In this document: positions 2,673-18,911 of the stretch, piece by piece
How the letters are laid out: the number at the start of each line of letters is the position of its first letter
Position numbering within the stretch: position 1 is the stretch's first letter
DNA from: a virus
Length of the DNA: 23,021 bases
Strand: one strand, 5' to 3'
IMG/VR virus record: IMGVR_UViG_3300006028_000138
Location: 1-23,021 of that record
Made by a program: the position numbers and the translations under genes
The notes under the pieces: model-generated
Databases searched by the model: none
What the model was told of the DNA's origin: nothing
Seen by the model: the letters and a program-made list of their open reading frames with translations, nothing else

Positions 2673-3035
2673 TCACGCCCAGGGATCTTTGTCTACGCGC
2701 AGGAACCTGGCCGCGAGCTTCGCAACCGCATCGTGCTCGGCCTGTACCGGGCAGCGGTGCGACGCCACAGCTCGCCACACGACGTTGCGGGTCTTCGCAC
2801 TGACCTCGACCTCCCAGACGATCTGGCGCCTGGGGCTGACTAGCTTCCAGACTCGATCACCAACCTCGAGCCTGTCCTTCGAGTCCAACGCGGCCTGGAG
2901 GTCGGCCTCTTCGCAGAAGCTGTCCTCCCAGTTGGCGACGTCCTGCTCTGTCGCAGGCCTGTACTCGCCAGTCTCCTCGCTGTCGGGATCGGTCTCCCAG
3001 CGCATGTTGCGCGACTCGACCACGTAGTCGATCAC
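2673..3035 (-). CDS. hypothetical phage protein, 120 aa
   Basis: It starts with GTG at 3035, overlapping the upstream gene's stop as GTGA, and codes for 120 residues. The N-terminal half is acidic (WETDPDSEETGEYRPA, then VANWEDSFCEEADL). The second half holds predicted beta strands (DRVWKLVSPRR, IVWEVEVSAKTRNVVWRAV) and a C-terminal helix with RFLRVDKDPWA. This resembles small beta-barrel or plectonin-like phage proteins in general shape only; no family is recognised. Between this gene's stop and the start at 2637 lie 35 bases with the next gene's ribosome site. Confidence 0.72.
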   Translation of the reverse strand: MIDYVVESRNMRWETDPDSEETGEYRPATEQDVANWEDSFCEEADLQAALDSKDRLEVGDRVWKLVSPRRQIVWEVEVSAKTRNVVWRAVASHRCPVQAEHDAVAKLAARFLRVDKDPWA

Positions 3036-3298
3036 CCGCTGACCTCGTCCGAGAAGACCTGGCAGGCGAGTGCCACGAGGCAGGCCCGACAGAGCATCAT
3101 GCGGCTGATGTGCACGCCGGTGTCTCGTGCCGGGTGTGGGACGCCGCGCGCCTCTCGGTTCTCATGCTGCTTCTCCAACACCTGGCGCGCCCCGATCGTG
3201 GGTGGTCCATTTCTGGTGCAGAGGATTCGATCGTACTCGCGTCCGCAGTCTGCCTGGCAGAGGCCGCCTTGCTGTTGAGCGTGCGCGATGACGATCAC
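3032..3298 (-). CDS. small cysteine-rich probable zinc-binding protein, 88 aa
   Basis: GTG start at 3298, overlapping the previous stop as GTGA. Cysteines C14, C18 and C27 form an N-terminal cluster, followed by a histidine-containing middle (QHENREARGVPHPARD) and a C-terminal LCRACLVALACQVF with C70, C73 and C79. A C-terminal CxxC followed by a short helix is also found in the proteins encoded at 3474-3752 and in the plus-strand zinc-site family from 5871 onward, though the N-terminal halves differ. A structural zinc site is likely; a role in nucleic-acid or protein binding is inferred. No named family recognised. Confidence 0.68.
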   Translation of the reverse strand: MIVIAHAQQQGGLCQADCGREYDRILCTRNGPPTIGARQVLEKQHENREARGVPHPARDTGVHISRMMLCRACLVALACQVFSDEVSG

Positions 3299-3477
3299 AA
3301 GGCCTCTACCTCACCGCCACCTGGTAGCTCCGACTCGTGTGCTCGCGGCAGGCAATGTTGGGTACGACCATGGCCGCCAGACTTGCGGTGGGCGCGGAGC
3401 CTGCCGTCTCGGTTCACGTGTACGAAGCGTCCGCAGTTTGGGCAGCGGATACGCGGTCCTCGTTTAGACTTGATCAC
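3295..3477 (-). CDS. C2HC zinc-finger protein, 60 aa
   Basis: This 60-residue basic protein starts with GTG at 3477 (GTGA overlap with the gene before it) and ends overlapping the next start in the same way. Residues 12-42 read C-P-N-C-G-R-F-V, then GRLRAH, and finally a cysteine at 42, giving C12, C15, H30 and C42 as likely ligands. This C-x2-C-x14-H-x11-C arrangement is common in very small phage proteins that end in a cysteine-proline or similar turn. The basic N terminus (MIKSKRGPRIR) would suit nucleic-acid binding. Its function is unknown. Confidence 0.7.
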   Translation of the reverse strand: MIKSKRGPRIRCPNCGRFVHVNRDGRLRAHRKSGGHGRTQHCLPRAHESELPGGGEVEAL

Positions 3478-3752
3478 AAGGCCTCCATCTCCAGGATCGC
3501 CAACGCGAGCCTGACCGCGCAGCGGTTGCAGAGGAACATCGGATCACTGTAGCTAGTGCCTCCGGTACTCGCCGGCGTGACCTTGTACAGCTTGCATCTG
3601 ATCGCGCCACCGCGTCCGGATTGGATGTTACCTGATCCCGACCTGTACGGAATGCAGCCGTGGCAGTTGTCGGCGTAGCCTTGTCCAGGCACCGCGGTGA
3701 TGGTGGCCCCGGCATGACCCTCGGGGTGCAGTCGACTTGGCTTCCTGGGCAC
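3474..3752 (-). CDS. small cysteine-rich probable zinc-binding protein, 92 aa; first gene of the minus block
   Basis: GTG at 3752 is the likely start; it is the first gene of the minus-strand block, reading away from the gene at 3830. The N-terminal region is glycine- and proline-rich. Cysteines C30 and C33 (NCHGC), C53 (IRCKLYKV), and C75 and C78 (FLCNRCAVRLALAIL) could form one or two zinc sites. The C-terminal CxxC-helix resembles that of the 88-residue protein and the plus-strand zinc family. No strong ribosome site precedes it, so the start is less certain. No function can be assigned. Confidence 0.65.
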   Translation of the reverse strand: MPRKPSRLHPEGHAGATITAVPGQGYADNCHGCIPYRSGSGNIQSGRGGAIRCKLYKVTPASTGGTSYSDPMFLCNRCAVRLALAILEMEAL

Positions 3753-3829: not shown

Positions 3830-4576
3830 ATGGGCACCACAGGGAACAAGGTCGACTTCGAGACATGGAACAAGCTGCTGGAGGCCTACCGCGAGGACCC
3901 TGGGAACTTCTCTAACGCGGCACGTCACGCAGGCGTCCAGCGCCGGACGGCCCGGAGAGCCTGGGACGTCGGGTACCCCGATCGACCTTGGGGAGGCAAG
4001 AGCATCCGGGACATGATCCGCGACGAGGCCGAGCTCGCGCGGTCCCGCACGCAGCTCGAGCTGGAGCGTGAAGAGTTGAACGAGGACAAGGAGTTACTCG
4101 AATCCGAGCGGTCCGCAGAAGCCGCGCGCCAGCGGGCGATCGCCGTCCGCGTTGAGGAAGCGCAGCTGATCTCCGGCGCTCGGGCCATTACGATGAACGC
4201 GTTCGCATCCGCGAGCAAGGCCGCGCAGGGCTTGTCCCAGGCCATGACTAAGCTGGGAGGCAGCCTGATCTCGAAGGCCATGTCTGCGGACGAGCTCAGC
4301 ATGAAGGACATGACAGCGCTGTCCGCGTTGCTGCGCCGATACTCCAGCACTCTCAGGGAGTTGACGCAGGCGGGTCAGACCGCGATGGAGATGGAGCGGC
4401 TGTACCTCGGAGAGCCGACAAGCGTGATCGGGGTGATGACAGACCTCGACGCCATGCCGATCGAAGACCTCGTCAAGATGGCTGGGTACCAGGACGAGGT
4501 CCTCACTCGAGCTCGCGAGCGCGGGCTGGTCGTCCTGGACGGCGGCCTCAAGAAAGACGGCAGCCACAAGCCCTAG
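3830..4576 (+). CDS. HTH and coiled-coil protein, possible terminase small subunit or DNA-binding regulator
   Basis: The 248-residue protein has an N-terminal helix-turn-helix (about residues 24-47: GNFSNAARHAGVQRRTARRAW), a long charged coiled coil (60-112: RSRTQLELEREELNEDKELL and on), a helical middle rich in alanine and serine (115-190), and a C-terminal helical part ending in a basic tail. Terminase small subunits often have this order of HTH, helical oligomerisation region and C-terminal part, and the gene lies upstream of terL, although more than 5 kb and many genes separate them. A transcription regulator for the divergent operons is the alternative, given its position at the divergent junction. 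The ATG at 3830 is the first start after the intergenic region; no clear ribosome site precedes it. A short 6-bp inverted repeat covers its stop codon. Confidence 0.78.
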   Translation: MGTTGNKVDFETWNKLLEAYREDPGNFSNAARHAGVQRRTARRAWDVGYPDRPWGGKSIRDMIRDEAELARSRTQLELEREELNEDKELLESERSAEAARQRAIAVRVEEAQLISGARAITMNAFASASKAAQGLSQAMTKLGGSLISKAMSADELSMKDMTALSALLRRYSSTLRELTQAGQTAMEMERLYLGEPTSVIGVMTDLDAMPIEDLVKMAGYQDEVLTRARERGLVVLDGGLKKDGSHKP

Positions 4577-4958: not shown

Positions 4959-5206
4959 TCGACGAGTCGAAGATGCTGAGCATGACGTGCTGGCGGTTCA
5001 TCGAGAAGAAGTGCCCCGGCGCTCGCGCCGCGTGGGCACGCGACGTCGGCCTTCCGGAGAACCAGTTCCAGATGGGGATCTCGGGCAAGCCGTTCTACTG
5101 CTCCGCAACCGAGCGCGACTGGTTCGCCAACCCTCAGAGCCAGCGCCGCCAGTTCAAGCGCGACCCCGCTACCGGCGTGTGGTCAGCCGTGTGGGCTCCG
5201 CCGTGA
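4955..5206 (+). CDS. hypothetical phage protein, 83 aa
   Basis: ATG at 4955 overlaps the previous stop as ATGA. The product is 83 residues, with two cysteines in the first third (TCWRFIEKKCPGA) and tryptophans along its length (CWRF, AAWARDVG, RDWFANP, VWSAVWAPP). It is basic in the second half. I recognise no family; it may be a small accessory protein that binds a partner through its aromatic surface, but that is speculation. The following gene starts by a GTGA overlap with its stop. Confidence 0.62.
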   Translation: MIDESKMLSMTCWRFIEKKCPGARAAWARDVGLPENQFQMGISGKPFYCSATERDWFANPQSQRRQFKRDPATGVWSAVWAPP

Positions 5207-5487
5207 TCGTCTACCTCGTGGCTCGCACCTACTCGGAGTGCGAGTCGATCAAGCCGACGATGTTCATGCTCTACCTCGGCACGCCGCAGGTAGTGGTTGC
5301 TGGCCTAGGCTGGGGCAAAGACTGGTGGACCCCGAAGAGTCACCCGCTCGATGCCGTCATGAGCCGCGACGTCCGCAAGTACAGGAGCAAGGTCGCTGCG
5401 ATCGCGAAGGCGCTCCTACTCGGCGGGCGCGTCATCCCCATCGACTCGTCCGCAGGTCACCTAGTACCTAGCAGGACTGCCCCGTGA
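5203..5487 (+). CDS. hypothetical protein of the tryptophan/ALLxGG small-protein family, 94 aa
   Basis: GTG at 5203 overlaps the previous stop (GTGA). The 94-residue product has an N-terminal strand (MIVYLVARTY), a WGKDWW aromatic stretch (about residues 44-49), then a helix ending in AKALLLGGRV (70-79). The same order of an N-terminal hydrophobic strand, central aromatic stretch and C-terminal AAAxALLxGG helix occurs in the two adjacent genes at 9262 and 9507, so these three look like paralogues. The function of this group is unknown to me. The frame continues upstream without stop, but the overlap start gives the length typical of its relatives. Confidence 0.65.
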   Translation: MIVYLVARTYSECESIKPTMFMLYLGTPQVVVAGLGWGKDWWTPKSHPLDAVMSRDVRKYRSKVAAIAKALLLGGRVIPIDSSAGHLVPSRTAP

Positions 5488-5501
5488 GCCCGAGCGCTCG
5501 C

Positions 5502-5663
5502 CTAGAACTTGACCACGTGCGTCGCTACCTCGAACATGGTCACGAGCAGACCGCAGGCGTAGGCCAGGCGGCCGAGCTCGACCAGCTTCGGGTTCGCGGA
5601 CAAGGCGTACACGAGGACGCCAACGATGCAGACGAGGAAGGGCAGGAGGATGGCAAAAGTCAT
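5502..5663 (-). CDS. small two-helix membrane protein on the minus strand, 53 aa
   Basis: On the minus strand this 53-residue protein has two hydrophobic segments, about residues 3-20 (FAILLPFLVCIVGVLVYA) and 32-47 (RLAYACGLLVTMFEVA), separated by a short SANPKLVELG loop. This is the shape and wording of tiny phage inner-membrane proteins that recur in many tailed phages; holin-like or superinfection roles are sometimes proposed for such proteins, but I cannot assign one. The gene runs against all its neighbours. Its ATG shares a palindromic CATG (5661-5664) with the start of the plus-strand gene at 5662. No ribosome site or promoter is obvious. The plus-strand frame across it has no coding character. 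Confidence 0.7.
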   Translation of the reverse strand: MTFAILLPFLVCIVGVLVYALSANPKLVELGRLAYACGLLVTMFEVATHVVKF

Positions 5664-5874
5664 GGGGCAGTCTAGTGCATCTGGCGCGCCAGGTCCAAAG
5701 GTCTGTGGGTACTGCCACGGCGTTTGCGCAGTCCAGATCGAGCGGTGGCTGAGCTCGTGCGGTGTCGAGCTGACCCGCTTGCCCCTGCCAGTCCCTGACG
5801 AGCTCACCGGCGGTGCGGTGAAGAACTTCCGCGGTGACAGCTGGCTGGCGCCAGCCAGGCTGCTCCGCAGGTGA
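5662..5874 (+). CDS. small CxxC zinc-site protein, 70 aa
   Basis: A 70-residue product from ATG 5662. AGGAGG at 5644-5649 lies 12 bases upstream, a slightly long spacing; an ATG at 5650 is too close to it, and one at 5626 would overlap the minus-strand membrane gene. The sequence VCGYCHGVCAVQIERW (residues 14-29) contains three cysteines and a histidine suited to one metal site, with a fourth cysteine at 33. The rest is proline-rich with no recognisable fold. The stop overlaps the next start as GTGA. Function unknown. Confidence 0.58.
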   Translation: MGQSSASGAPGPKVCGYCHGVCAVQIERWLSSCGVELTRLPLPVPDELTGGAVKNFRGDSWLAPARLLRR

Positions 5875-6089
5875 GGCGCGTGCGCCTGTGGGAGGACACG
5901 CTCTCGCTCAGGCGAGACTGGCACGCGGTCGATCCCTATGACGGCTTCCACGGGCAGCGTACGATGTGCGGCCGCGATCTCGAAGGCGACCGTCCCCACC
6001 ACCACGATGACATGATGTCGGTGACGTGCCCGGATTGCCGCGCCGCGCTCGCTGCTGTATTGCTGATGTCGGAAACGATCCCAGACTAG
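5871..6089 (+). CDS. H-C-CxxC small zinc-site family protein, copy 1 (72 aa)
   Basis: GTG at 5871 (GTGA overlap). Likely ligands are H18, C33 (TMCG), C53 and C56 (VTCPDC), followed by the helix RAALAAVLLM. This order (histidine, 11-28 residues, a cysteine often followed by glycine, 18-36 residues, then [TD/N]CxxC and an alanine-rich helix) is repeated in genes at 7440, 8287, 8583, 8996, 9770 and 12267. Small proteins with this plan are frequent in phages of high-GC hosts, but I know no tested function. A histidine run (HHHDD, 43-47) lies between the ligands. Confidence 0.68.
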   Translation: MRRVRLWEDTLSLRRDWHAVDPYDGFHGQRTMCGRDLEGDRPHHHDDMMSVTCPDCRAALAAVLLMSETIPD

Positions 6090-6103
6090 GCAAGTCCTAG
6101 GGC

Positions 6104-6481
6104 ATGGCGCGTAGAACAATCCGAGTGAGGCATAGCGCGGCTTCGATCTTGCGAGCGAAGATCGAGGAGAGCATCGTGGCTCTCGCCAAAGACCGCGACG
6201 CGATCGACATCGAGCTCAGGCTGCTGATGGCGATGTTGGCGGCCGGCGAGGTCGTGGTCAAGAGGTCTCGGCCTGCGAAGGCCTCGAAGGGGAAGGGCGG
6301 TGACGCGGGTGTGGTCGCGTTGGAGATGCTCGCGACCCGAGGCTCAGTGACCGCAGAGGACCTCTTGGCGAAGACCGGGCAGACGATGAAGAATGCGAAC
6401 CAAACGCTGGCGAGGCTCTGCCGGACAGGACGAGCGAAGCGCGTCCGCAAAGGCGTGTACTCGAGAACAGGTAGGACGTAG
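6104..6481 (+). CDS. winged-helix DNA-binding protein with N-terminal coiled coil, 125 aa
   Basis: ATG at 6104 follows a 14-base gap. Residues 14-47 form a likely coiled coil (RAKIEESIVALAKDRDAIDI), residues 52-66 a basic glycine/lysine linker, and 69-121 a winged helix: VALEMLATRGSVTAEDLLAK, then QTLARLCRTGRAKRVRKGVY, where the last part looks like the wing of MarR/Lrp-type or phage wHTH domains. It probably dimerises through the coiled coil and binds DNA, perhaps controlling nearby phage genes. The stop TAG shares a base with the GTG of the next gene (TAGTG). Confidence 0.75.
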   Translation: MARRTIRVRHSAASILRAKIEESIVALAKDRDAIDIELRLLMAMLAAGEVVVKRSRPAKASKGKGGDAGVVALEMLATRGSVTAEDLLAKTGQTMKNANQTLARLCRTGRAKRVRKGVYSRTGRT

Positions 6482-6663
6482 TGGCGAAGCGAGATCACAA
6501 GTTCGAGGAGCAGCTAGCGATCGTCCTGCGTCGGGCGGCGAGACTGCAAGCGGCTATCGACGGCAGCGCGGAGATCGAGTACGTTGAGGTCGGTGCCTGT
6601 CGAGTGAAGGCCCACCGCCGCGGCGCCCACACCAGGGCCGTGATAAAGCTGAGGACCAAATGA
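6481..6663 (+). CDS. small basic hypothetical protein, 60 aa
   Basis: GTG at 6481 overlaps the previous TAG by one base. The 60-residue product has an N-terminal helix (FEEQLAIVLRRAARLQAAID) and a C-terminal pair of strands rich in arginine and histidine (YVEVGACRVKAHRRGAHTRA). It could be a small nucleic-acid-binding partner of the winged-helix protein before it, judged only from charge and gene order. No family recognised. Ends as ATGA with the next gene. Confidence 0.6.
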   Translation: MAKRDHKFEEQLAIVLRRAARLQAAIDGSAEIEYVEVGACRVKAHRRGAHTRAVIKLRTK

Positions 6664-7205
6664 AAGACCCCAAGGGCAACGAGCTCAAGCCTGTCCTGCT
6701 CCAGATCATGGACTCAGACGCGCAAGGTCCTATCCTCCTGCGCGTCCGCTACGACCACGAGAAGATCGATCTCAGCAGCGACGCAAACGCCGGCAGTGCC
6801 AAGTTCGCAATCGTGTACGCGCCCTCGGACTTGGTGCTCGGCGAGATGCGCCTGACCGACCTCTACGAGGACTTCGACAGGCTGAAGGCTGCGCATGTCG
6901 CGGGCGAGGCCGAGAAGGACGGCCTGGCGTACAAGATCGTAGGCTTGACTCGCGACCTCACAGCGCTCGGGGAGGAGAACAGGATCAAGACCGAGGCCCT
7001 CCGCGCGCTCCAGAAGGAGCGAGACCCCGTGCGGTTCGAGGCCTTGATTGCGGAGCGTGCAGCCAAGCTGGCTGCCAAGGCTGAGGCAGAGCTCGCAACG
7101 GCGCGCTCGGATGCAGCCGCGTTGCGGTCGGAGGTGGTCGAGCTGCGTGCTGCGAAGAAGCGGCTCAAGGAAGCGAACGAGCGCTTGAAGGAGCGAGCCA
7201 AGTGA
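6660..7205 (+). CDS. coiled-coil protein, 181 aa
   Basis: ATG at 6660 (ATGA overlap). Residues 1-60 look like a small beta-rich domain (VLLQIMDSDAQGPILLRVRY, then AKFAIVYAPSDLVLGEMRL). From about residue 64 to the end the protein is a continuous heptad-like coiled coil dominated by alanine, glutamate, leucine, lysine and arginine. The architecture suits a homo-oligomer that presents the N-terminal domain. I recognise no family; a structural or scaffold-like accessory role is possible. The next gene overlaps by GTGA. Confidence 0.7.
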   Translation: MKDPKGNELKPVLLQIMDSDAQGPILLRVRYDHEKIDLSSDANAGSAKFAIVYAPSDLVLGEMRLTDLYEDFDRLKAAHVAGEAEKDGLAYKIVGLTRDLTALGEENRIKTEALRALQKERDPVRFEALIAERAAKLAAKAEAELATARSDAAALRSEVVELRAAKKRLKEANERLKERAK

Positions 7206-7450
7206 AGATCGCTCTCGGGATCAACCACAAGGACATCGTCGAGGCCATCCGCGAGTGGTTCGCGGCTCGCGGTGTGCCGGCCGTGCACCTGGCTGAGATC
7301 AAGCTCGAGTTCCGCGGTGCGAACGGCTACGAGTGGATGGGCCTCCCAGGCGGCAGCGCGACGGCGGCCCAGGTCCGCGCCGGCGTAGCCTTCGAGGCCG
7401 ACGCCTTCAGCTCGGAGACGCAGCCCAAGGCCTTGACCGATGGATCCTGA
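7202..7450 (+). CDS. hypothetical phage protein, 82 aa
   Basis: GTG at 7202 (GTGA overlap). The first half reads MKIALGINHKDIVEAIREWF, then AARGVPAVHLAEIKLEF: a strand, a helix and a second strand. This resembles the many small phage proteins that begin MKI-x-L-x-x-x-D-I-x-E-A-I, whose function is unknown. The second half is alanine- and glycine-rich. It overlaps the next gene by 11 bases. Confidence 0.65.
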   Translation: MKIALGINHKDIVEAIREWFAARGVPAVHLAEIKLEFRGANGYEWMGLPGGSATAAQVRAGVAFEADAFSSETQPKALTDGS

Positions 7451-7745
7451 GGACGACGAGTTCGACCAAGAGGAGGTCGAGGCCGACAACATCCCGACCC
7501 CGCTGCGGTCGTTCCAGGGGGCCGGCTGGTTCTGGCTCTGCCGCGTGCGACACGGGAAGCGAGGGAGACGCAACGTCACCCATCTCTACACGAGCAGCAA
7601 GCTCAACGGCAGCAAGACCTGTTGCGGCGCGACCTTCAACGGCTACCGACACCAAGGGCCGCTGTCGGAAGTGAACTGCCAAGACTGCAAGTCTGTCCTT
7701 GCAGCGAAGTTGTTGGTCGCGATCAAGATGCCTGAGGACGAGTGA
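7440..7745 (+). CDS. H-C-CxxC small zinc-site family protein, copy 2 (101 aa)
   Basis: ATG at 7440, inside the end of the preceding gene. The N terminus is acidic (MDPEDDEFDQEEVEAD). The zinc plan follows: H48 (NVTHLY), C61 or C62 (KTCCG), C80 and C83 (VNCQDC), then the helix KSVLAAKLLVA. Compared with copy 1 it has an extra 35-residue N-terminal part with WFWLCRVRHG. Paralogue of the genes at 5871, 8287, 8583, 8996, 9770 and 12267. Metal binding is likely; its partner is unknown. Confidence 0.72.
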   Translation: MDPEDDEFDQEEVEADNIPTPLRSFQGAGWFWLCRVRHGKRGRRNVTHLYTSSKLNGSKTCCGATFNGYRHQGPLSEVNCQDCKSVLAAKLLVAIKMPEDE

Positions 7746-8290
7746 GCACGGCGATCCGAGGACCTGTGGCGATAGCAACCAACCTGATCACGGCAGAGGA
7801 CCATCCGTTCATTCGGAGGTTCCCCGTGTTCGGCGGCTTCCAGTTCGCAGTGGTGATCGGGACCGGGCCGCGGCAAAGCAGCGTGGACAGCGGTGAGCTC
7901 ATCACCTCCTACCCGCAGGTGCTCAAGGCCATCCGCCAGCAGCTGCGGAACGACGATGGCTGGTCTAACCGCTATGACCGTCGCGTAGGCCATCCGGTCG
8001 AGCGCCCGTTCCTGCGGCGAGCTCTCGGCGAGCGGCAGCTCCACGCAGCCTTCTCAGCGATGGACACCAAGTGGACGATGCGCGGGGTCGACCACCTCTA
8101 CGGGCTCGCGACCGAGCGGTGCTTCAACCTACTGGTCACGGACGGCGTGCTGGTGCGGCCGAGTCGTCGCGATGTCTGCGAGCTCGAGGACGATCGCAAG
8201 CACTACTGGGCTGTGGATCGCGAGGCGCGTGACTCGTGGATCGCCGCGCGGATGCTTGCGCTCGCAGACTTCGAGGAGCGCGCGCGGTGA
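7742..8290 (+). CDS. hypothetical phage protein, 182 aa
   Basis: GTG at 7742 (GTGA overlap). The 182-residue product has a predicted alpha/beta N-terminal part (FGGFQFAVVIGTGPR, residues 37-51), a helical middle with many arginines, a HLYGLATERCFNLLVTDGVL region (about 120-139) that could be a winged-helix-like end, and a C terminus DSWIAARMLALADFEERA similar to that of the protein encoded at 1614-2099. I do not recognise a family or catalytic motif. It lies within the chain of small overlapping genes and is one of its longest members. Confidence 0.7.
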   Translation: MSTAIRGPVAIATNLITAEDHPFIRRFPVFGGFQFAVVIGTGPRQSSVDSGELITSYPQVLKAIRQQLRNDDGWSNRYDRRVGHPVERPFLRRALGERQLHAAFSAMDTKWTMRGVDHLYGLATERCFNLLVTDGVLVRPSRRDVCELEDDRKHYWAVDREARDSWIAARMLALADFEERAR

Positions 8291-8586
8291 GGTACTGCGT
8301 TGGGGTCTGGTTCTGCGAAGACTCTCAGCTCGGCTCGTGGGGACTCGTGGTGCACGGCAGTGACGGCAAGTGGCCGCCGGGCCAGGAGCGATACGGGCCC
8401 ACCGCGCGCTCCAAGACCACGTGGTGCGGTGAGGCCTCGGTCGGCACCTTCTCGGCCCCGATCATAGTTACCGCTGTGGTCATGGAGGAGAGTGCGATCA
8501 CGTGCCCCAACTGCATCGCATACGGTGCAGCTCAGCGCCTCGTTGAGGAGGACTTGCCGAGGAACTGGGCGCGGAGAATGAAGTGA
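8287..8586 (+). CDS. H-C-CxxC small zinc-site family protein, copy 3 (99 aa)
   Basis: GTG at 8287 overlaps the previous stop (GTGA); the frame is open further upstream but the overlap start fits its neighbours. Ligand plan: H23 (VVHGS), C47 (TTWCGEA), C73 and C76 (ITCPNC), then IAYGAAQRLVEE. The N terminus (MRYCVGVWFCED) adds two cysteines and is hydrophobic. The C terminus is basic (RNWARRMK). Ends by GTGA overlap with copy 4, which starts four bases before this stop ends. Confidence 0.68.
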   Translation: MRYCVGVWFCEDSQLGSWGLVVHGSDGKWPPGQERYGPTARSKTTWCGEASVGTFSAPIIVTAVVMEESAITCPNCIAYGAAQRLVEEDLPRNWARRMK

Positions 8587-8999
8587 CCTTCGCTCGGCGA
8601 GCGGTGCGGTCGGAATACGAACGGGCCTATGGTAAGGCTGATGCTGTGGCGCGCCGCATCGAGACCGTGTTCGAGTCCTACCCGGGGTTGACCGAGTTCA
8701 AGCGCACGCACTGGCTGGAGCCCAGGGAGGGGATCCGGGCGCGCGGCATCGCCACGATGCACGAGGTGAAGACCTCGTGCGGGCTGCACCTGACCGCGCT
8801 GGTCTCGGGCGAGAGCAGTGTCGGCGACGTCGACTGCGAGACCTGCCAGGTCGCGCTCATCGCTGCGTACCTGCGCGAGGACCGCTGCTACGCCTGCAAC
8901 GATTCTGGGATCATCCCTGGCAGTGCGAAGAACGGACAGCGAGCAACGATCTGCGGCTGCCAGAACGCGCGGGTCATCTTCCCTGGGGCAGACAAGTGA
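8583..8999 (+). CDS. H-C-CxxC zinc-site protein, copy 4, with an added DnaJ-like cysteine module (138 aa)
   Basis: GTG at 8583 (GTGA). An N-terminal helical region (residues 1-40) is followed by the zinc plan H43 (THWLEP), C66 (KTSCG), C85 and C88 (VDCETC) and the helix VALIAAYLRED. A second cysteine module then follows: C102 and C105 in CYACNDSGII, and C124 and C126 in TICGCQNA. CxxCxxSG resembles half of the DnaJ CxxCxGxG zinc repeat. This is the longest copy of the family, and the only one here with a clear extra domain. It is the family member most likely to reveal function by structure prediction. Confidence 0.7.
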   Translation: MTFARRAVRSEYERAYGKADAVARRIETVFESYPGLTEFKRTHWLEPREGIRARGIATMHEVKTSCGLHLTALVSGESSVGDVDCETCQVALIAAYLREDRCYACNDSGIIPGSAKNGQRATICGCQNARVIFPGADK

Positions 9000-9265
9000 A
9001 CGAGGTCGAGAAGAAGCTCGCAGCGCGATTGATGCTGGAGCAGACCGCGCTCTGCCGCGTGAGCTTGCCTGGGGAGGGCACGCGGTACGAGCTCGTGCAC
9101 CTCTGGGAGTCTGGAAGCCAGTACCCGATCGACAGTGGGCCTCCGTGTGGCGCAGGCAAGTACGGCGTGTTCAACCACTGGCTTGGTCCACTGCGCGAAG
9201 TGACCTGCCAGGACTGCATCGCGGTGATGGCGGCGCGTCGACTGATCAAGGCACCGGACCTATGA
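8996..9265 (+). CDS. H-C-CxxC small zinc-site family protein, copy 5 (89 aa)
   Basis: GTG at 8996 (GTGA overlap with copy 4). Ligands: H35 (YELVHLW), C51 (PPCGAG), C71 and C74 (VTCQDC), then IAVMAARRLIK. The CQDC and MAARRL wording is close to copies 2 and 7, so these appear to be the closest relatives. N-terminal helix MNEVEKKLAARLMLEQ. Ends ATGA with the next gene. Confidence 0.7.
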   Translation: MNEVEKKLAARLMLEQTALCRVSLPGEGTRYELVHLWESGSQYPIDSGPPCGAGKYGVFNHWLGPLREVTCQDCIAVMAARRLIKAPDL

Positions 9266-9510
9266 GGTGGGTCGTCTACTTCTCCGTCAGCTCGTACCCG
9301 AATCGGGTCGCGGCGCTCGCTGCGAATGTCGGGATCGGACGGATGTACCTCTGCCGCGATGCACCGCAGCTCGAGAAGTACCGCGCGGTTGGGAACTACC
9401 ATCAAGGCTGCTGGGCGGTGAACCCCGACGACGCGACCAACTTCGAGACGGAGGCTGAGGCCGCTGCCGAGGCGCTGCTCTATGGCGCTGGCGTGGAGGC
9501 CCGTCCATGA
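9262..9510 (+). CDS. tryptophan/ALLxGG small-protein family member, 82 aa
   Basis: ATG at 9262 (ATGA). MRWVVYFSVSS at the N terminus, a GCWAVNPDDATNFETEAEAA stretch from residue 49, and EALLYGAG near the end. The next gene (9507) has the same plan: MTWVVMKRSS at its start, then ATQIESIEEAAAIALLHGG. The pattern tryptophan-valine-valine strand, aromatic middle and then AT-x(3)-E-x(2)-EAAA-x-ALL-x-G is also detectable in the 5203 gene. Tandem duplication of 9262 and 9507 is the simplest reading. Function unknown. Confidence 0.68.
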   Translation: MRWVVYFSVSSYPNRVAALAANVGIGRMYLCRDAPQLEKYRAVGNYHQGCWAVNPDDATNFETEAEAAAEALLYGAGVEARP

Positions 9511-9773
9511 CCTGGGTCGTCATGAAACGATCGTCCCCGGTCATGGACAGCATCGGCAGGCTTGTGGACAGCAGGAACACGTTCTACGAACGGACGCCTA
9601 CGCTTGATCCGGCCAACCCCGTGATGGCGCATTGGACGCCGCATCTCGAGTACGCAACCCAGATCGAAAGCATCGAAGAGGCTGCCGCCATCGCACTCCT
9701 TCATGGAGGCAAGCCGCGGCGCGCGTCCGAGTTCAAGAACTCTCTGCCTCCGGTCGGCTGGACGACGCCGTGA
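9507..9773 (+). CDS. tryptophan/ALLxGG small-protein family member, 88 aa
   Basis: ATG at 9507 overlaps the previous stop (ATGA). It begins MTWVVMKRSSPV, has HWTPHLEYATQIESIEEAAA (from about residue 42), then IALLHGGKPRR and a short proline-rich tail. It is the tandem relative of the gene before it, with a longer C terminus. No cysteine or catalytic motif. Its stop overlaps the following GTG. Confidence 0.68.
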   Translation: MTWVVMKRSSPVMDSIGRLVDSRNTFYERTPTLDPANPVMAHWTPHLEYATQIESIEEAAAIALLHGGKPRRASEFKNSLPPVGWTTP

Positions 9774-10084
9774 CCGCGCATATGATCCACAGGATCCCAG
9801 TTGCGATTGAAGTGCTGCCGAGCGGTCACATGGGTGACGGCCCAGTGCATTGGGTCCCGACTCCTCACCAGCCGTTGGCTCATGCTGAGCTCTACGATGA
9901 CCCGGAGTATGCGATCACCGCGTGCCGTGACTCGGTCATCGGGATGATCCAGGACTGGGTCTCGAGCTCGCACAGCATCACCTGCCTGGAGTGCCAGGCC
10001 AGGCTCGCTGCGGACTACTTGAGCAAGGAGAGGTTCGGAGACGAGCTCGAGGAGGCTGTGCATGCCAAGCTCGACAAGCTGTAA
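9770..10084 (+). CDS. H-C-CxxC small zinc-site family protein, copy 6 (104 aa)
   Basis: GTG at 9770 (GTGA); an ATG at 9782 would remove only four residues. Ligands: H27 (VHWVPTP), C52 (ITACRDS), C72 and C75 (ITCLEC), then QARLAADYLSKE. HWVP is close to the HWLEP of copy 4. The C-terminal 25 residues form an extra acidic helix. The last codons contain the -35 of the terL promoter. It is the last gene of the overlapping chain before terL. Confidence 0.65.
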   Translation: MTAHMIHRIPVAIEVLPSGHMGDGPVHWVPTPHQPLAHAELYDDPEYAITACRDSVIGMIQDWVSSSHSITCLECQARLAADYLSKERFGDELEEAVHAKLDKL

Positions 10085-10099
10085 CGGGTAGGCTACGAT
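10071..10099 (+). promoter_or_regulatory. promoter for terL (TCGACA, 17 bases, TACGAT)
   Basis: TCGACA at 10071-10076 matches the TTGACA -35 at five of six positions. After exactly 17 bases TACGAT at 10094-10099 matches TATAAT at four. The GTG of terL is 9 bases further on, leaving no room for a Shine-Dalgarno, so a leaderless or near-leaderless message is predicted. TAGGCT at 10089-10094 is an overlapping alternative -10. Confidence 0.6.
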
Positions 10100-10108
10100 C
10101 GACGGCTC

Positions 10109-11584
10109 GTGCTTGTCCAATCCCGCAAGGGCCGCTCTCAGCTCGTCCGTGAGGCCCGCGCTCGTCGCGCGATCATCTGCCGTCTGGCTCGCACCGACCC
10201 CAACGTGTTCTGCGAGTACGTCCTCAAGGACGAGAAGACGAACGCACCTATCATCCAAGCTGACGTTCACCGCGCGTGGAACCGCGAGATGGACGAGGCC
10301 GACCGCCTGCTGATCTGGGCGCACATTGAGGCTGGCAAGACGATGCAGGTCTCAGTCGCGCGCACGCTCTACGACCTGGGGCGCGACCCGAGCCTGCGGT
10401 TCCTCATCCTCTCCAACACCCAGAACCAGGCGCGCAAGGTCGCGCGGCTGATCAAGCAATACGTCGAGACCTCGAGCGAGCTGCACGATGTCTTCCCCGA
10501 CCTCCAGCCTGGGTCGCCGTGGGGCGAGTTCGCGTTCAACGTCAAGGGTCACGACAACGCAAAGGACCCGAGCATCCAGATCGCTGGCGTGCACGGCAAC
10601 GTCCAGGGCTCACGTCTCGATGTGATCGTGGTCGATGACATCCTGGACTGGGAGAACACACGCACCCAGGAGCAGCGCAAGCAGCTGATCGAGTGGTGGC
10701 AGTCGACTCCCGCAGGCCGGCTCGTGGACGGCGGACGCATTCGCGGGATCGGGACTGCGTACCATCCGCAGGACCTGCTCCACTGGATGGCTCGGCAGCC
10801 GCGGTGGCGCGCGCTGCGGTACCCCGTGGTCGACCCAGCCACTGGCGAAGCACGCTGGCCGGAGCGCTGGTCGCTCGAGCGGATCGCAGCCAAGGCAGCA
10901 GACCTCGGCCCGCTCGAGGCCCAGCGCCAGCTGATGTGCGAGGCCCGTGACGACGCCTCGTCCAAGTTCAAACGCGAGTGGCTCGAGGTCGCGCTGCGCC
11001 AGGGGGACAACACGAGCCTCGCCTCGGCCCTGACGATCGTGCCACCCGGCTACCGCGTCTACACGGGCGTCGACCTCGCGGTCCAGCAGAAGGAGTCGTC
11101 CGACTTGACGTGCCTCTTCACCATCGCGGTCGACCCCTACGGCGTGCGGAACCTGCTGAACATCGAGTCCGGCCGCTGGGCAGGGCCTGAGATCATCAAG
11201 CGGATCCGCGATGCCCACGTGCGCTACCAGTCGATCGTGGTCGTGGAGAACAACGCGGCGCAGGACTACATCATCCAGTTCACGCGAGACTCTGCTGGCG
11301 TGGCCATCCCGATCATCCCGTACACCACTGGCCGCTCGAAGGCTCACCCCGAGTTTGGTATCGAGTCCATCGGCGTCGAGATGGGCCAGGGCAAGTGGCG
11401 CATCCCGAACCAGGCCGGGCACATGCACCCCGAGGTCCAGGCCTGGTTCGACGAGATGCTGTTCTACGATCCCGCGGCTCACACAGGCGACCGGCTGATG
11501 GCGAGCTTCTTCGCGCGCGAAGGCGTGCGGCTCGGCGGTCGTCGGGTCGAGCCCGTCACTGGTGCGGACTTCACTCGCCGCTGA
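10109..11584 (+). CDS. terL: terminase large subunit (packaging ATPase and nuclease)
   Basis: The 491-residue protein has the TerL order. The ATPase half has a Walker A at residues 71-78 (AHIEAGKT), a strand FLILSNTQNQA (98-108) and Walker B VIVVDD (172-177), followed by a GIGTAYHPQDLL coupling motif (213-224). The RNase H-like nuclease half has D322 in YTGVDLAV, E380 in VVVENNAA and D461 in HTGDRLMA as likely metal ligands. The Walker A starts with alanine instead of glycine, a deviation seen in some terminases. The protein cuts concatemers and powers packaging through the portal encoded at 16980. GTG 10109 is the start given the promoter just upstream; no ribosome site is seen. The length is usual for the family. 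Unlike in most phages, about 5 kb of small genes separate it from the portal gene. Confidence 0.93.
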   Translation: MLVQSRKGRSQLVREARARRAIICRLARTDPNVFCEYVLKDEKTNAPIIQADVHRAWNREMDEADRLLIWAHIEAGKTMQVSVARTLYDLGRDPSLRFLILSNTQNQARKVARLIKQYVETSSELHDVFPDLQPGSPWGEFAFNVKGHDNAKDPSIQIAGVHGNVQGSRLDVIVVDDILDWENTRTQEQRKQLIEWWQSTPAGRLVDGGRIRGIGTAYHPQDLLHWMARQPRWRALRYPVVDPATGEARWPERWSLERIAAKAADLGPLEAQRQLMCEARDDASSKFKREWLEVALRQGDNTSLASALTIVPPGYRVYTGVDLAVQQKESSDLTCLFTIAVDPYGVRNLLNIESGRWAGPEIIKRIRDAHVRYQSIVVVENNAAQDYIIQFTRDSAGVAIPIIPYTTGRSKAHPEFGIESIGVEMGQGKWRIPNQAGHMHPEVQAWFDEMLFYDPAAHTGDRLMASFFAREGVRLGGRRVEPVTGADFTRR

Positions 11585-11637
11585 TTGTCGGAACGCGGTG
11601 CAGCCTCCGCAAGTCACTTGGCACAGGAGGACTGAAG

Positions 11638-12270
11638 ATGGCCGAGATCAAGTTCAAGGGTAAGAAGTTTGAGAAGCTCAAGGCGTTCCTCAAACGCGAG
11701 AACGCGAAGTTCGGGAAGCTGACAAAGAAGGAGCAGCGGCTGGAGATTGCGCACGATGTCATCGCGCTGCTCAAAGCCGAACGGATCATGGCGTCCAGCA
11801 CGTACATCAGCTTTGAAGATGGGGCAGACCTTGAGCCGTGCTACGCAAGTGAAGAGGACGACTACGGTGACCGTGTGATTGATCCGGCGATGAAAAAGAT
11901 CGAGACCCGACTCCTGCTCGACCAGCTTCCGGCGTGCGAGGTCTGCGGGATTGGCTCGCTGTTCGTTGCGGCAGTGCGCAAGCACGACAAGTTGCCGATC
12001 TCGAACTTCCTCGATCTGTACAACGGCCGGAGCGACCGACGAGACAGCGAGGCGCGTTACTTGAAGAAGTGGTTTGATCAAGACGAGCTCTATGATGTGG
12101 AGAGGTTCTTCGAGGCTGACGCCGACAACTTCTCAGAGCAGTCATCTCCAATCAGGAGCCAGAATGACAAGAGCATTCGGCTCGTCATGATCATGGAGAA
12201 CATCATCTCCAACGGGGGGCACTTCAAGCCTTCGGTCGGCCGGCACAAGGACCCGGTCGGTTCACTGTGA
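11638..12270 (+). CDS. hypothetical phage protein with CxxCG motif, 210 aa
   Basis: ATG at 11638 has the best ribosome site in the window, AGGAGG at 11625-11630, 7 bases upstream. The 53-base gap before it is otherwise featureless. The N terminus is very basic and helical (KFKGKKFEKLKAFLKRENAK). Residues 98-110 read PACEVCGIGSLFV, a CxxCGxG motif followed by a hydrophobic helix, a wording found in conserved phage proteins of unknown function. The C-terminal region is acidic and ends RHKDPVGSL. Third-position GC is lower than in most neighbours, which may mean more recent acquisition. The next gene starts by GTGA overlap. Confidence 0.75.
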   Translation: MAEIKFKGKKFEKLKAFLKRENAKFGKLTKKEQRLEIAHDVIALLKAERIMASSTYISFEDGADLEPCYASEEDDYGDRVIDPAMKKIETRLLLDQLPACEVCGIGSLFVAAVRKHDKLPISNFLDLYNGRSDRRDSEARYLKKWFDQDELYDVERFFEADADNFSEQSSPIRSQNDKSIRLVMIMENIISNGGHFKPSVGRHKDPVGSL

Positions 12271-12530
12271 ACATCGAGAAGGTCGCAGCTCTCAACTGCC
12301 TCGTGCGAGCGAGGCGAGGCGCGCGCCTTCACCTCATCAGGCCGCTCGGGTACAACACGCTCTGCGGCGTGAACCACGTGGCGATGACCCCGATCTACTC
12401 CGGAGGTTTGATCCCTCCAGGTCATGCGGACTGGGGGCTCGAGCAGCGAGATCGGATCCTCAAGTACGCCACGTGCCAAGACTGCCTTGCCGCACTGCCG
12501 GCGATCCTCCTCAGGATGGAGGAGGCGTGA
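12267..12530 (+). CDS. H-C-CxxC small zinc-site family protein, copy 7 (87 aa)
   Basis: GTG at 12267 (GTGA). Ligands: H22 (LHLIRP), C33 (TLCGV), C70 and C73 (ATCQDC), then LAALPAILLRME. The spacing between the cysteine at 33 and the CxxC is the longest of the group after copy 8287-type members, with a glycine- and proline-rich loop between. It is the only clear copy downstream of terL. Function unknown. Confidence 0.7.
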   Translation: MNIEKVAALNCLVRARRGARLHLIRPLGYNTLCGVNHVAMTPIYSGGLIPPGHADWGLEQRDRILKYATCQDCLAALPAILLRMEEA

Positions 12531-13919: not shown

Positions 13920-14555
13920 ATGGTTACTCCAGCTCACCCAGTCTCGAAGAAGAAGCCAGGTCCCAGCCGCGTTACGACCAAGCTGGAGTGCAGGCTCTGC
14001 CACAAGATGTGCTCGCTCAAGATCCTGCGCCGCGATCACGGCCTGCACCAGCCGCTCTGCGTAGGCGAGCGGACGATGGCGTGGATGCTCGCGAACGACT
14101 GGATGCCATGCGGCACCGCGGCCGCGGTGTTGGAGCGCGCCGGCGTGACCAAGGCGATGCCGTTCTACACCTACACCTGGGAAGAGACTCGCGATGCCCA
14201 CGGCAAGCGGATCGGGCACACGAAGGAGTACCTGGTCGAGTACTACCCAGTCGCCCCGACCTGGGCCGTGACGCTCGCGCGCCGTTTGATGCGCGAGGAT
14301 GAGATCATCCGCAAGGTGTTCGGCAACAAGGTCAAGCTCGAGAAGCGCGTCGGCTTGATGGCTGCACGCAAGGCATCGCGGCACGGTCAGGGCCGCGTGG
14401 TGTCTACGAAGGAGCGAGACGATGTGGTTGAGCGGGCCGTGATCCCCATCAGCCTGCGCGCAAAGATCATCCGCTCGGCCACTAACGCAATGACGCGAGA
14501 GCTGCTCGAGGATGACTTGCTCGCCGCGCTGACCATCATCAAGGATTCGGTATGA
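13920..14555 (+). CDS. zinc-finger hypothetical protein, 211 aa
   Basis: ATG at 13920, three bases after the previous stop. A basic proline-rich N terminus (VSKKKPGPSRVTTK) precedes C24 and C27 (ECRLCHKMC), then DHGLHQPLC with H40, H43 and C47, so a C2HC-type finger is likely; it resembles a DNA-binding zinc finger more than the H-C-CxxC family. Aromatic residues at about 75-105 (FYTYTWEETRD, then EYLVEYYPVAPTWAV) are followed by a helical basic C-terminal half. It may be a nucleic-acid-binding protein; no named family recognised. Ends ATGA with the next gene. Confidence 0.68.
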   Translation: MVTPAHPVSKKKPGPSRVTTKLECRLCHKMCSLKILRRDHGLHQPLCVGERTMAWMLANDWMPCGTAAAVLERAGVTKAMPFYTYTWEETRDAHGKRIGHTKEYLVEYYPVAPTWAVTLARRLMREDEIIRKVFGNKVKLEKRVGLMAARKASRHGQGRVVSTKERDDVVERAVIPISLRAKIIRSATNAMTRELLEDDLLAALTIIKDSV

Positions 14556-14750: not shown

Positions 14751-15578
14751 ATGTGGGGCGAGCCGTATGAGGACGTCGAGCACCACATCAAGCACTGGGC
14801 TTGCGATGGTGCTGAGGGTCGCTTGAACGCAGCCATCTCCAAGCTGCCGAGAGTCGTCACTCGCGACCCCGAAGCCCCGTGGCCGCGATTCGAGGCCTCC
14901 GAGTGGAGGAAGACTTGGCTCGGTTCCCACCGCGATGCACGAAGTGGGTCGGCGCCTGTCGACGTCATCTCTTGCGACTTCTCATTGCTGGTCGGGGGCA
15001 CGGATCCAAGCCCATGGTCCGTTGAGATCAGACGCCCAGTCCGCTTCGACTCGACCAGATGGCGCGGCCGATCCACCAAGCGAGTGTCGCCCGTCTTCTT
15101 CAGCCACGCAGTGCGGCACACGCCAACTGGGCTCGGCGATTATGATAACGCGATCTCGCTGCTGATCGGCCGATGCGAATCGTGGCGAGACGCAGCGCTG
15201 CAAGTGCGCGACGTGTTCGATCCGACGGCGCTAGCAGCGACCTTCGGTCGCCAGGTCTACGACCGTCGAGGCTGGACCGAGGTCCGTGAGACGTACCAGG
15301 ACCGCTACACGATGCCCGGTACCCCAGATGCTCGGCCGCACTGGAAGGCGACCGAGAACGGAGCCGAGCCGATCGCGACGATACGTGTTGACGACGCTCA
15401 GCACACCGCGCAGAAGCTCCTGCATGAGGCCGGGATGGGTAAGCAGCTCATCATGGGTCCGCTGGCTGATGGCACCGCGTTCGCGCTCAGCGGGTACACC
15501 GGAGACCGCCACCCTATCGACTTCGCTGTGTGGTGTGCGGATGTGATCTCGTCGGCTGATGACTACACGGAGCAGTGA
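14751..15578 (+). CDS. hypothetical phage protein, 275 aa
   Basis: ATG at 14751 follows the previous stop by one base; the frame is open upstream but the residues there are serine/arginine-rich shadow sequence. The 275-residue product starts MWGEPYEDVEHHIKHWACDG. A middle region CDFSLLVGGTDPSPWSVEIR (about residues 77-96) and SPVFFSHAVRHTPTGLGDYD appear to be strands, and the C-terminal 70 residues look like a compact alpha/beta domain (VDDAQHTAQKLLHEAGMG, then FALSGYTGDRHPIDFAVWC). I recognise no family. It sits immediately before the peptidase gene, so a virion or lysis-linked role is possible. Confidence 0.68.
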   Translation: MWGEPYEDVEHHIKHWACDGAEGRLNAAISKLPRVVTRDPEAPWPRFEASEWRKTWLGSHRDARSGSAPVDVISCDFSLLVGGTDPSPWSVEIRRPVRFDSTRWRGRSTKRVSPVFFSHAVRHTPTGLGDYDNAISLLIGRCESWRDAALQVRDVFDPTALAATFGRQVYDRRGWTEVRETYQDRYTMPGTPDARPHWKATENGAEPIATIRVDDAQHTAQKLLHEAGMGKQLIMGPLADGTAFALSGYTGDRHPIDFAVWCADVISSADDYTEQ

Positions 15579-15582
15579 CGTG

Positions 15583-15591
15583 TGGTAGGGT
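15583..15591 (+). promoter_or_regulatory. extended -10 box (TGGTAGGGT) for the M23 peptidase gene
   Basis: TG-G-TAGGGT is an extended -10 (TGnTAnnnT), which can work without a -35; none is visible. Seven bases separate it from ATG 15599. The intergenic gap is only 20 bases and has no Shine-Dalgarno, again pointing to a leaderless message. Confidence 0.5.
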
Positions 15592-15598
15592 CGATCGC

Positions 15599-16165
15599 AT
15601 GGACCCCGCGAATTTCATCGGCTGGATGTACCCAGTGCCGATCCTCAATGGCCGCAAGCCGGTCATCTCGCACGAGTTCGAGGGCGGCGAGCGCTACCTG
15701 CCGGACGGCTCGCTGAACTACGCGACCCACCTCGGAGTCGACTTGATGTACCCGAGGCTCCCGTCTGACCCGACGGGACCTGCGACCAACGTCGCGATCC
15801 CGAAGCATGGGAACAACCCAGGCTGGATCACGTACCCGAACACGCCTATCCGCGTTGCAGGCCCAGGCAAGATCTGGAGAGCAGGCACGACGCCCCTCGG
15901 TCACTTCGTCGAGATCGATCACGGCCACGTGGCCGGCGTCGGGATGATGACGTTCTACCAGCACATGACCGGCTTCGCACAACCGTGGACGAAGGGTGTC
16001 GAAGTCATGCCTGGCACCGTGTTAGGCATCATGGGCGGTGACCCCACGAACGACCCTCACCTCGTGCACCTCCACTTCGAGCTGTGGCTGCCAGACGGCA
16101 AGCCGAAGCGCGGCGACTGGCCGGTCGACCCGGCTCCCTACCTCAAGATGTGGGCGCAGGTCTGA
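15599..16165 (+). CDS. M23 family zinc metallopeptidase (peptidoglycan hydrolase)
   Basis: The 188-residue protein has the LytM/M23 motifs. H44 and D48 sit in YATHLGVDLM (the HxxxD pair), H122 in FYQHM (the usual Y-x-H), and H157 and H159 in VHLHFE (HxH), so H44, D48 and H159 should bind zinc, with H122 and H157 catalytic. Intervening strands (GKIWRAG, GHFVEIDHG, VMPGTVLGIMG) fit the beta-sheet fold. The enzyme cleaves peptide cross-links of peptidoglycan. There is no signal peptide or transmembrane segment, so it is either a virion enzyme that opens the wall during infection or an endolysin that depends on a holin. It lies among head-module genes rather than beside an obvious lysis cassette. 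ATG 15599 is preferred over GTG 15575, because of the extended -10 box just upstream. Confidence 0.9.
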   Translation: MDPANFIGWMYPVPILNGRKPVISHEFEGGERYLPDGSLNYATHLGVDLMYPRLPSDPTGPATNVAIPKHGNNPGWITYPNTPIRVAGPGKIWRAGTTPLGHFVEIDHGHVAGVGMMTFYQHMTGFAQPWTKGVEVMPGTVLGIMGGDPTNDPHLVHLHFELWLPDGKPKRGDWPVDPAPYLKMWAQV

Positions 16166-16979: not shown

Positions 16980-18911
16980 GTGACCGCAAACGGCCTTCCA
17001 GGCGGACCCATCTCCGCGGTGTCTGCTGGGATCATGCACGACGAAGAGGTCGAGCGAGATCGCCAACGGCTCGGCTTGTCTCCTCGCCAGCAGGTGCTGG
17101 ACAAGCTCTACAGCTACTACCGCTGCGATCAATACGCGGCTCGCATCGTAGCGTGGGACGGCTCGCGCCACCTCGGCCAGGTCGAGAAGGACACCGTCGC
17201 GCTGTCGGGCTACGTCCCGCCCGGCTTCTACATTGCGAACAATGACACTCTGCCGATCCAGTTCCGTAGGCCGACGAGCCCGTATCACCTCGTCAAGGTG
17301 ATCGTTGACCGCTTCACAGGGCTGCTGTTCTCGCAGAAGCGGCACCCGCGGATCACGGTCCCCGGCGACGAGAAGACCGAGGACTTCCTCAACACGGTTG
17401 CTGAGGAAGGTCGCCTCTGGCCGGCGATGATGCAGGCGCGCGCCTTCGGTGGCGGTGTCGGCACAGCGGTTGTCGGGTTCAAGCTGCTCCAGGGTCGCCC
17501 GGTGTTCGAGGTCTACGACCCGCGCTGGTGTATGCCGAAGTTCGTCGATCGCAACCAGCTGGTGCTCCACTCTATGGAGTACCGCTACATCTTCGTCCAA
17601 GAGATCCGCGATCCCGAGGGCAACTGGCACGAGGTCGAGTTCTGGTATCGGCGCGTCATCGACGCCCAACGGGACGTCATCTACACGCCCGTTCAAGTCG
17701 AAGACACTCAGCGCCAGATCCAGTGGAAGGAGCTCGAGGCCGTCGAGCACAAGCTCGGGTTCTGCCCGATCGCTTGGATCCAGAATCAAGCCAACCAAGT
17801 CGAGATCGACGGCGACCCAGACTGCATTGGCATCTACGAGCTCGTCGAGGCCATCGACCGCCTCAACGCGCAGAGCGAGAAGGGCGTGCTCGCGAACTGC
17901 GACCCGACCGTCGTCATTGCGACCGACGCGACGATGGGCGAGGTCCGCAAGGGCTCGGCCAACGCGATCAAGATGCCCTCTGGCGGTACCGCGAGCTACA
18001 TGGAGATCTCAGGCGGCGGCATCAAGGCCGCCAGCGACAAGGCGAAGGAGTACAAGGAGATGGCTCTCGAGGTCGCCCAGTGCGTCCTCGAGCAGCCCGA
18101 CGGTCAGAAGACCGCGACCGAGGTCGATCGCAACTATGCCAGCATGCTTGCCAAGGCCGACACGCTCCGCGAGCAGTACGGCGAGATGGGCGTCAAGCGC
18201 CTGCTGAACATGGTCATCGTTGCAGCCAAGCGGCTGACGACCCCGCGTGCCGAGAACGGTGCGATCGTGCGCGCGACGTTCTCGCTCGCCCCCAAAGTCG
18301 AGAAGGACGAGAAGACCGGGAAGCAGAAGTTGATCACGCGCTCCATCGGGCAGGGTCCGTACCGCGTTGACCTCACGTGGCCGCACTACTTCGAGCCGTC
18401 CGTGACCGACGCCGGCAAGGCCGTCCAGTCGGCGATGACCGCGAAGACCTCGGGGCTCGTCGACGCGGCTACGGCTGCGAAGTACGTCGCTCCGTACTTC
18501 GGTATCGAGGACGTCGACAGCATGATCGCAGAGGTCAATCGCGCGGCACGCGAGGACCAGCAGTCGCTCGAGGAGATGGCGCTCAAGGGCCCAGGCGACG
18601 ACAGCGACACGGGCGACGGACAGCCGACGAACGTCCAGCAGCACGCGCTCAACGGTGCGCAGGTCACCGCGCTGCTCGCGCTTGCTGTGGCAGTCGATGC
18701 TGGTCAGATCTCGGCCGAGTCGGCGATGGGGATCATCGAGGTCTCCTTCCCAGTCGGCCATGCGGAGGCATTCAAGATCGTCGGCAACCTTGGCGGCAAG
18801 AAGTCAGTCGTTGCCCAGGCGCAAGCCAAGCAGGCGGCAGCCGCAAAGGCAGCGGCCGCACCTCCGGCTGCTACCCCGCCTCCGCCGACACCACCCAAGC
18901 CAGGACCGTGA
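16980..18911 (+). CDS. phage portal protein
   Basis: The 643-residue protein has the features of a tailed-phage portal: an N-terminal helical part with YSYYRCDQYAARIVAW (about 45-60), a YHLVKVIVDRFTGLLF helix (about 102-117), VFEVYDPRWCMPKF strands, an ELVEAIDRLNAQSEKGV wing or stem helix, and GGIKAASDKAKEYKEMALEV followed by TATEV, as in many portal families. A helical C-terminal region and a low-complexity alanine/proline tail (from about residue 605) follow. Twelve copies form the ring at one capsid vertex through which TerL pumps DNA and onto which the tail attaches. GTG 16980 is chosen because of the extended -10 box just upstream. The following genes (MuF, acidic protein) complete a head module; the major capsid gene is not in the window and would be expected downstream. 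Confidence 0.9.
   Translation: MTANGLPGGPISAVSAGIMHDEEVERDRQRLGLSPRQQVLDKLYSYYRCDQYAARIVAWDGSRHLGQVEKDTVALSGYVPPGFYIANNDTLPIQFRRPTSPYHLVKVIVDRFTGLLFSQKRHPRITVPGDEKTEDFLNTVAEEGRLWPAMMQARAFGGGVGTAVVGFKLLQGRPVFEVYDPRWCMPKFVDRNQLVLHSMEYRYIFVQEIRDPEGNWHEVEFWYRRVIDAQRDVIYTPVQVEDTQRQIQWKELEAVEHKLGFCPIAWIQNQANQVEIDGDPDCIGIYELVEAIDRLNAQSEKGVLANCDPTVVIATDATMGEVRKGSANAIKMPSGGTASYMEISGGGIKAASDKAKEYKEMALEVAQCVLEQPDGQKTATEVDRNYASMLAKADTLREQYGEMGVKRLLNMVIVAAKRLTTPRAENGAIVRATFSLAPKVEKDEKTGKQKLITRSIGQGPYRVDLTWPHYFEPSVTDAGKAVQSAMTAKTSGLVDAATAAKYVAPYFGIEDVDSMIAEVNRAAREDQQSLEEMALKGPGDDSDTGDGQPTNVQQHALNGAQVTALLALAVAVDAGQISAESAMGIIEVSFPVGHAEAFKIVGNLGGKKSVVAQAQAKQAAAAKAAAAPPAATPPPPTPPKPGP

Follow-up and report, generated by a model that had tools for sequence, protein, structure and literature searches.

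The window, i.e. the whole stretch of DNA analysed here, is an entire IMG/VR virus contig of 23,021 bases. Seven plus-strand ORFs (members A to G in Table 1), all found at the coordinates given by a first-pass annotation, encode small proteins featuring a histidine, a lone cysteine and a C-x-x-C pair followed by an Ala/Leu-rich stretch. The lone cysteine is part of a CG dipeptide in six proteins and of a CR dipeptide in the product of gene 9770. Member D carries in addition a Cys-rich C-terminal tail. Starts overlap the upstream stop by four bases in six genes (the overlap is GTGA in member C), which are consequently read as translation-coupled; the overlap is 11 bp long in gene 7440. The longest ORFs of 8287, 8996 and 9770 begin further upstream, and the stop-overlapping starts originally assigned to these genes are plausible. 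GC3 values of the seven genes range from 0.80 to 0.86 and resemble those of the large terminase (TerL, 0.87) and portal (0.84) genes, so that all seven look coding.

Table 1. Positions of family members and of the other features discussed. Coordinates refer to the window, except in the last line; E-values were obtained with the profile built on outside proteins.
Feature	Coordinates	Strand	Length (aa)	Putative ligands	E-value	Remarks
Small Cys-rich protein	3032-3298	-				CxxC before C-terminal helix
Small Cys-rich protein	3474-3752	-				CxxC before C-terminal helix
Small-terminase-like protein	3830-4576	+				Left border of variable interval; named from position and build
Member A	5871-6089	+	72	H18, C33, C53, C56	2.8e-9	
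Member B	7440-7745	+	101	H48, C62, C80, C83	2.1e-3	
Member C	8287-8586	+	99	H23, C47, C73, C76	1.3e-3	
Member D	8583-8999	+	138	H43 (or H60), C66, C85, C88	3.4e-4	
Member E	8996-9265	+	89	H35, C51, C71, C74	1.7e-3	
Member F	9770-10084	+	104	H27, C52 (CR), C72, C75	1.7e-4	
Large terminase (TerL)	10109-11584	+				Identified by tblastn to phage terminases; right border of the interval with members A-F
Member G	12267-12530	+	87	H22, C33, C70, C73	6.4e-3	
Portal	16980-18911					
Head morphogenesis protein	20480-21451					
Family array of contig G008	12-2299 and 3705-8953	+				

Members A to F are all located between a small-terminase-like gene and the TerL gene, which F directly precedes; G lies outside this interval, just downstream of TerL. 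The product of the small-terminase-like gene has a helix-turn-helix-like N-terminal stretch followed by a charged helical stretch, and matched no PHROG; homologous genes precede TerL in contigs L003, L007, L009, L010, L012, L014 and L185. The window TerL is distant from the terminases of cultured phages (22-27% identity among the tblastn matches listed), and has 38 relatives among viral contigs. The nearest relatives of the window are L003 and L004, in which TerL is 68% identical and gene order is kept, and next come L005-L012 (about 50%). A further relative, G008 (L185, IMGVR_UViG_3300005529_000953), is a contig of 15,243 bases with TerL and portal proteins 53% and 46% identical, respectively. 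The interval between the small-terminase-like and TerL genes spans about 0 kb in L010, 0.7 kb in L007, 1.1 kb in L012, 2.4 kb in L009, 3.2 kb in L014, 4.4 kb in L003, and 5.5 kb in both G008 and the window. Family copies vary in number among the phages sharing this TerL: none is found in L005-L040, one in L003 and L004 (the L003 copy is closest to member D), seven in the window, and about 12 genes, all on the plus strand and corresponding to some 17-18 units, in G008. In the latter, copies flank the small-terminase-like gene on either side, and five proteins consist of two units fused in tandem. With a length varying from 0 to 5.5 kb, and with the other relatives lacking copies, the interval behaves like a site of accessory genes.

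Other window genes deserve mention. The ORFs at 49-186, 640-1395 and 22117-22701 are, judging from their sequence, presumably QueD (C-terminal part), QueE and FolE, which we take to be a 7-deazaguanine synthesis set, possibly with a role in DNA modification. QueD and QueE are also found in L003, together with a possible DpdA-like protein (1371-2303). The 15575-16165 product resembles M23-type peptidases, ends with HLHFELW..., and is possibly an endolysin or a tail peptidase. A CxxCxxxC...H...C cluster close to the N-terminal start of the 13920-14555 protein, which is homologous to L003 13849-14409, is another putative metal site. Lastly, the small proteins encoded at 9262-9510, 9507-9773 and 5206-5487 are alike at their end (AAxxALLxGG-like), and the first two weakly match each other (E 0.037); the three may represent a second small paralog family diverging nearby.

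Membership of the seven genes in one family, proposed in the first-pass annotation, was assessed with proteins gathered from other viral contigs by a DNA pattern for C-G..V-T-C-x-x-C. An HMM built from 32 such proteins, and no window sequence, recovered exactly the seven ORFs at E<0.01 (2.8e-9 to 6.4e-3) and none other of all the window ORFs; no shuffled ORF scored below E 0.18. The copies were not placed in unrelated families by profile searches. Pairwise, phmmer linked 5871 to 7440 (E about 3e-5) and 7440 to 8996 (E about 3e-6), the remaining members being too diverged for pairwise proof. No direct DNA repeats of 30 nt or more are left between window copies. Similarity within the window is just modestly above similarity to other contigs (permutation p 0.03), and therefore not all seven genes need be mutual duplicates. 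The best explanation is that a family of one-domain phage mini-proteins has seven members here, either paralogous or co-recruited. The minus-strand genes 3032 and 3474, previously regarded as partial members, must be set apart: matched to three family profiles they gave E-values of 14-39 or no match, and a CxxC before a helix is all that they have in common with the family.

The H-C-CxxC site is present in all seven proteins, and in an alignment of 52 sequences the His, the lone Cys and both Cys of C-x-x-C are the only invariant columns, conservation of the cysteines being partly built in, as the Cys pattern was the collecting criterion, and an upstream His having been required in choosing the alignment set. 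The Thr preceding C-x-x-C is nearly invariant. The strong divergence outside the ligands, noted in the first-pass annotation of the seven genes, is supported. AlphaFold2 models of members A (mean pLDDT 82) and E (74.5) agree in placing the histidine in a short strand (H18 in A; H35 in strand 34-37 in E) and C-x-x-C where the C-terminal helix begins (54-69 in A, 72-85 in E). This predicted layout suits one bound metal, and the model topology suggests that the four ligands converge. The family proteins probably bind metal, zinc being the most likely. In Foldseek searches member A matched no solved structure in the PDB, and a profile search of PDB sequences found no credible relative (best E 0.42). 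Against BFVD member A gave weak matches (E 0.14-0.95, probability 0.5-0.97), to be taken as leads only, to uncharacterised proteins of, for example, Haloarcula tailed virus 2, Mycobacterium phage Aminay and Microbacterium phage Hendrix; nothing was found by Foldseek with member E.

No Pfam or NCBIfam family was assigned to window members over curated cut-offs, and the wider family set gave weak matches to these libraries. Single members similarly reached no named PHROG family over a cut-off. PHROGs scatters proteins of this type over several small families of unknown function (phrog_15583, phrog_7505, phrog_9470 and others); member A matches phrog_15583 (E 3.8e-4), and five related proteins match phrog_7505 (best E 2.6e-13). 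As in the window family, the match falls in the H..C..CxxC region of phage proteins of unknown function, but the unnamed PHROG families have not been joined into one, nor described as multi-copy. The name of Pfam zf-HC3 (PF16827) suggests one His and three Cys as found here, and 2 of 48 related proteins matched it weakly (best E 0.023); no window protein did at E<=10, and the 25-bit cut-off was not reached. Lar restriction alleviation proteins (PF14354) are also small, Cys-rich and phage-encoded. They have a pair of Cys in place of the lone one of the window proteins, and member F alone gave a match, with 12.7 bits against a cut-off of 28.6 bits. WhiB-like regulators hold an Fe-S cluster by four conserved Cys, whereas the invariant residues are here three Cys and one His. 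No description of the H-C-CxxC family or of such arrays was found in the literature searched, which covers few of the subscription journals, and nothing on zf-HC3 (PF16827) or on arrays of zinc mini-proteins in phages was found there. The nearest situation described is that of the zinc finger mu-proteins of Haloferax volcanii, numerous tiny putative zinc proteins of one domain each, encoded by one genome, the majority of which are reported to bind zinc and several to be associated with phenotypes (PMC6562870, PMC11241148). The mu-proteins are cellular, feature four Cys in two C(P)XCG motifs and form no hyperdiverged phage array. Window sequences have just one CxxC plus a lone Cys and do not belong to them.

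The largest expansion seen is hosted by G006 (L186-L188 and L190, IMGVR_UViG_3300042090_002485), a contig of 187,862 bases which looks unrelated to the window phage, because the phages that its large conserved protein matches form another set. Four cultured phages carrying the latter protein gave no family match below E 0.01. Seventy of the 71 domains matched in G006 are on one strand, and 68 have H..C..CxxC within the matched stretch; leaving out the antisense match and the few domains lacking some ligands, about 67 genes are counted, which form runs of overlapping short ORFs around 86, 130-153 and 167-183 kb. A 145-kb contig from a different metagenome (G007) is 100% identical to G006 over the compared stretches; this speaks against an artefact of assembly, provided that the two data sets have no reads in common. 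The ligand columns of this array do not vary and their immediate neighbours are conserved (V-T-C-V-x-C-L-A, G-V-V-H); entropy in most columns beyond these is 3-4 bits, i.e. close to random, and pairwise identity is 25% on average and 47% at most. The ligands of the window and G006 sets align in hhalign (probability 71%, E 3.8e-5). Common descent of the two sets is likely from this alignment, independent convergence on ligand spacing being possible. Expansion, first noticed in the window phage, is thus found also in its relative G008 and in G006, and the family expands repeatedly, in unrelated phages.

The H-C-CxxC proteins are widespread, unnamed mini-proteins of tailed phages. At E<=0.01, 39 of the 50 pattern-collected contigs have one profile match, five have two, one has four and five have none. 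Among cultured phages, a single homolog annotated as hypothetical is encoded by Pseudomonas phage PAK_P4 (86981-87166), within a string of small hypothetical genes and close to ClpP-like protease, dCMP deaminase and ligase genes; Stenotrophomonas phage S1 has a single copy in an unannotated frame, annotated genes being on the opposite strand. When members A and B, the single L003 homolog and a gene of one array were compared with cultured phages by tblastn, nothing relevant was retrieved. Scanning viral contigs by alignment to window members also failed, for want of conserved stretches. In a limited sample of 150 bacterial genomes, from the phylum of one Gammaproteobacteria MAG, no match was found at E<=1e-6. 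A 354-aa protein encoded by contig L100 (IMGVR_UViG_3300046615_000303, 5278-6342) includes about three units of the family domain.

The chances appear even that the H-C-CxxC proteins represent a metal-stabilised mini-scaffold, serving as a diversifying accessory set for interaction with the host or counter-defence. In such a domain, a short beta element carrying the His would be followed by a loop Cys, which is mostly part of CG, then by a variable loop and finally by a C-x-x-C opening the C-terminal helix, and the one His and three Cys would hold a single metal ion, most likely zinc. The ion would stand in for a hydrophobic core, leaving nearly all other residues, loops and surface free to vary. 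Genes could be gained, duplicated, fused and lost in translation-coupled strings within the accessory interval, and the copies would be small proteins with differing host partners, acting in takeover or counter-defence, defence components being among the putative targets. A set of small proteins differing in their targets is consistent with genes being gained and lost at an accessory site, with translational coupling, with the two-unit fusions and with the unconstrained surface charge. As a counterpoint, variation around a fixed metal site could reflect relaxed drift, and member G lies outside the interval. More tentatively, phages may maintain expandable arrays of up to about 67 genes per genome, with variation allowed everywhere except at the metal site, as a permanent stock of binders for counter-defence or host takeover.

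The main rival reading is that each copy is a small nucleic-acid-binding regulator, a zinc-finger transcription or antitermination factor acting on phage or host genes. A few outside members weakly match WhiB-like and Q-like PHROGs, and a small zinc-finger protein of Halobacterium, Brz, does regulate transcription (PMC2253796). Net charge however spans -9 to +3 in window members and -8 to +7 in the G006 array, where the median pI is 6.4; a charge so poorly conserved and often negative speaks against nucleic-acid binding by all copies and is in keeping with protein partners that have diversified. As a conserved basic surface or recognition helix is also absent, and some 67 regulators would be unusual in a single phage, this reading fits less well and is unlikely. 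Neutral accumulation, by which an easily metal-folding short ORF is duplicated by replication slippage and drifts with the metal site alone constrained, would account for constraint confined to ligand columns and their neighbours, for the tandem overlapping organisation, and for the fused proteins of G008. It is nonetheless improbable, because about 67 copies whose frames are still open and whose ligands are kept despite a mean identity of 25%, and the disappearance of DNA repeats from the window, point to long retention against loss, unlike what neutrality would leave in compact phage genomes. That the proteins are minor virion or packaging components, as adjacency to TerL might suggest, is most improbable, since they are absent from relatives that share TerL and portal, copy number is unstable, unlike that of structural proteins, and the PAK_P4 homolog sits among protease, deaminase and ligase genes.

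Small phage genes of unknown function make up a large unread portion of viral genomes. The H-C-CxxC family, defined by just four putative metal ligands, escapes the family libraries now in use, even though its expansion has recurred in unrelated phages. Should the copies hit different host targets, each array would directly supply candidates for counter-defence proteins, and the scaffold would exemplify how a small binder can be held together by a metal in nature.
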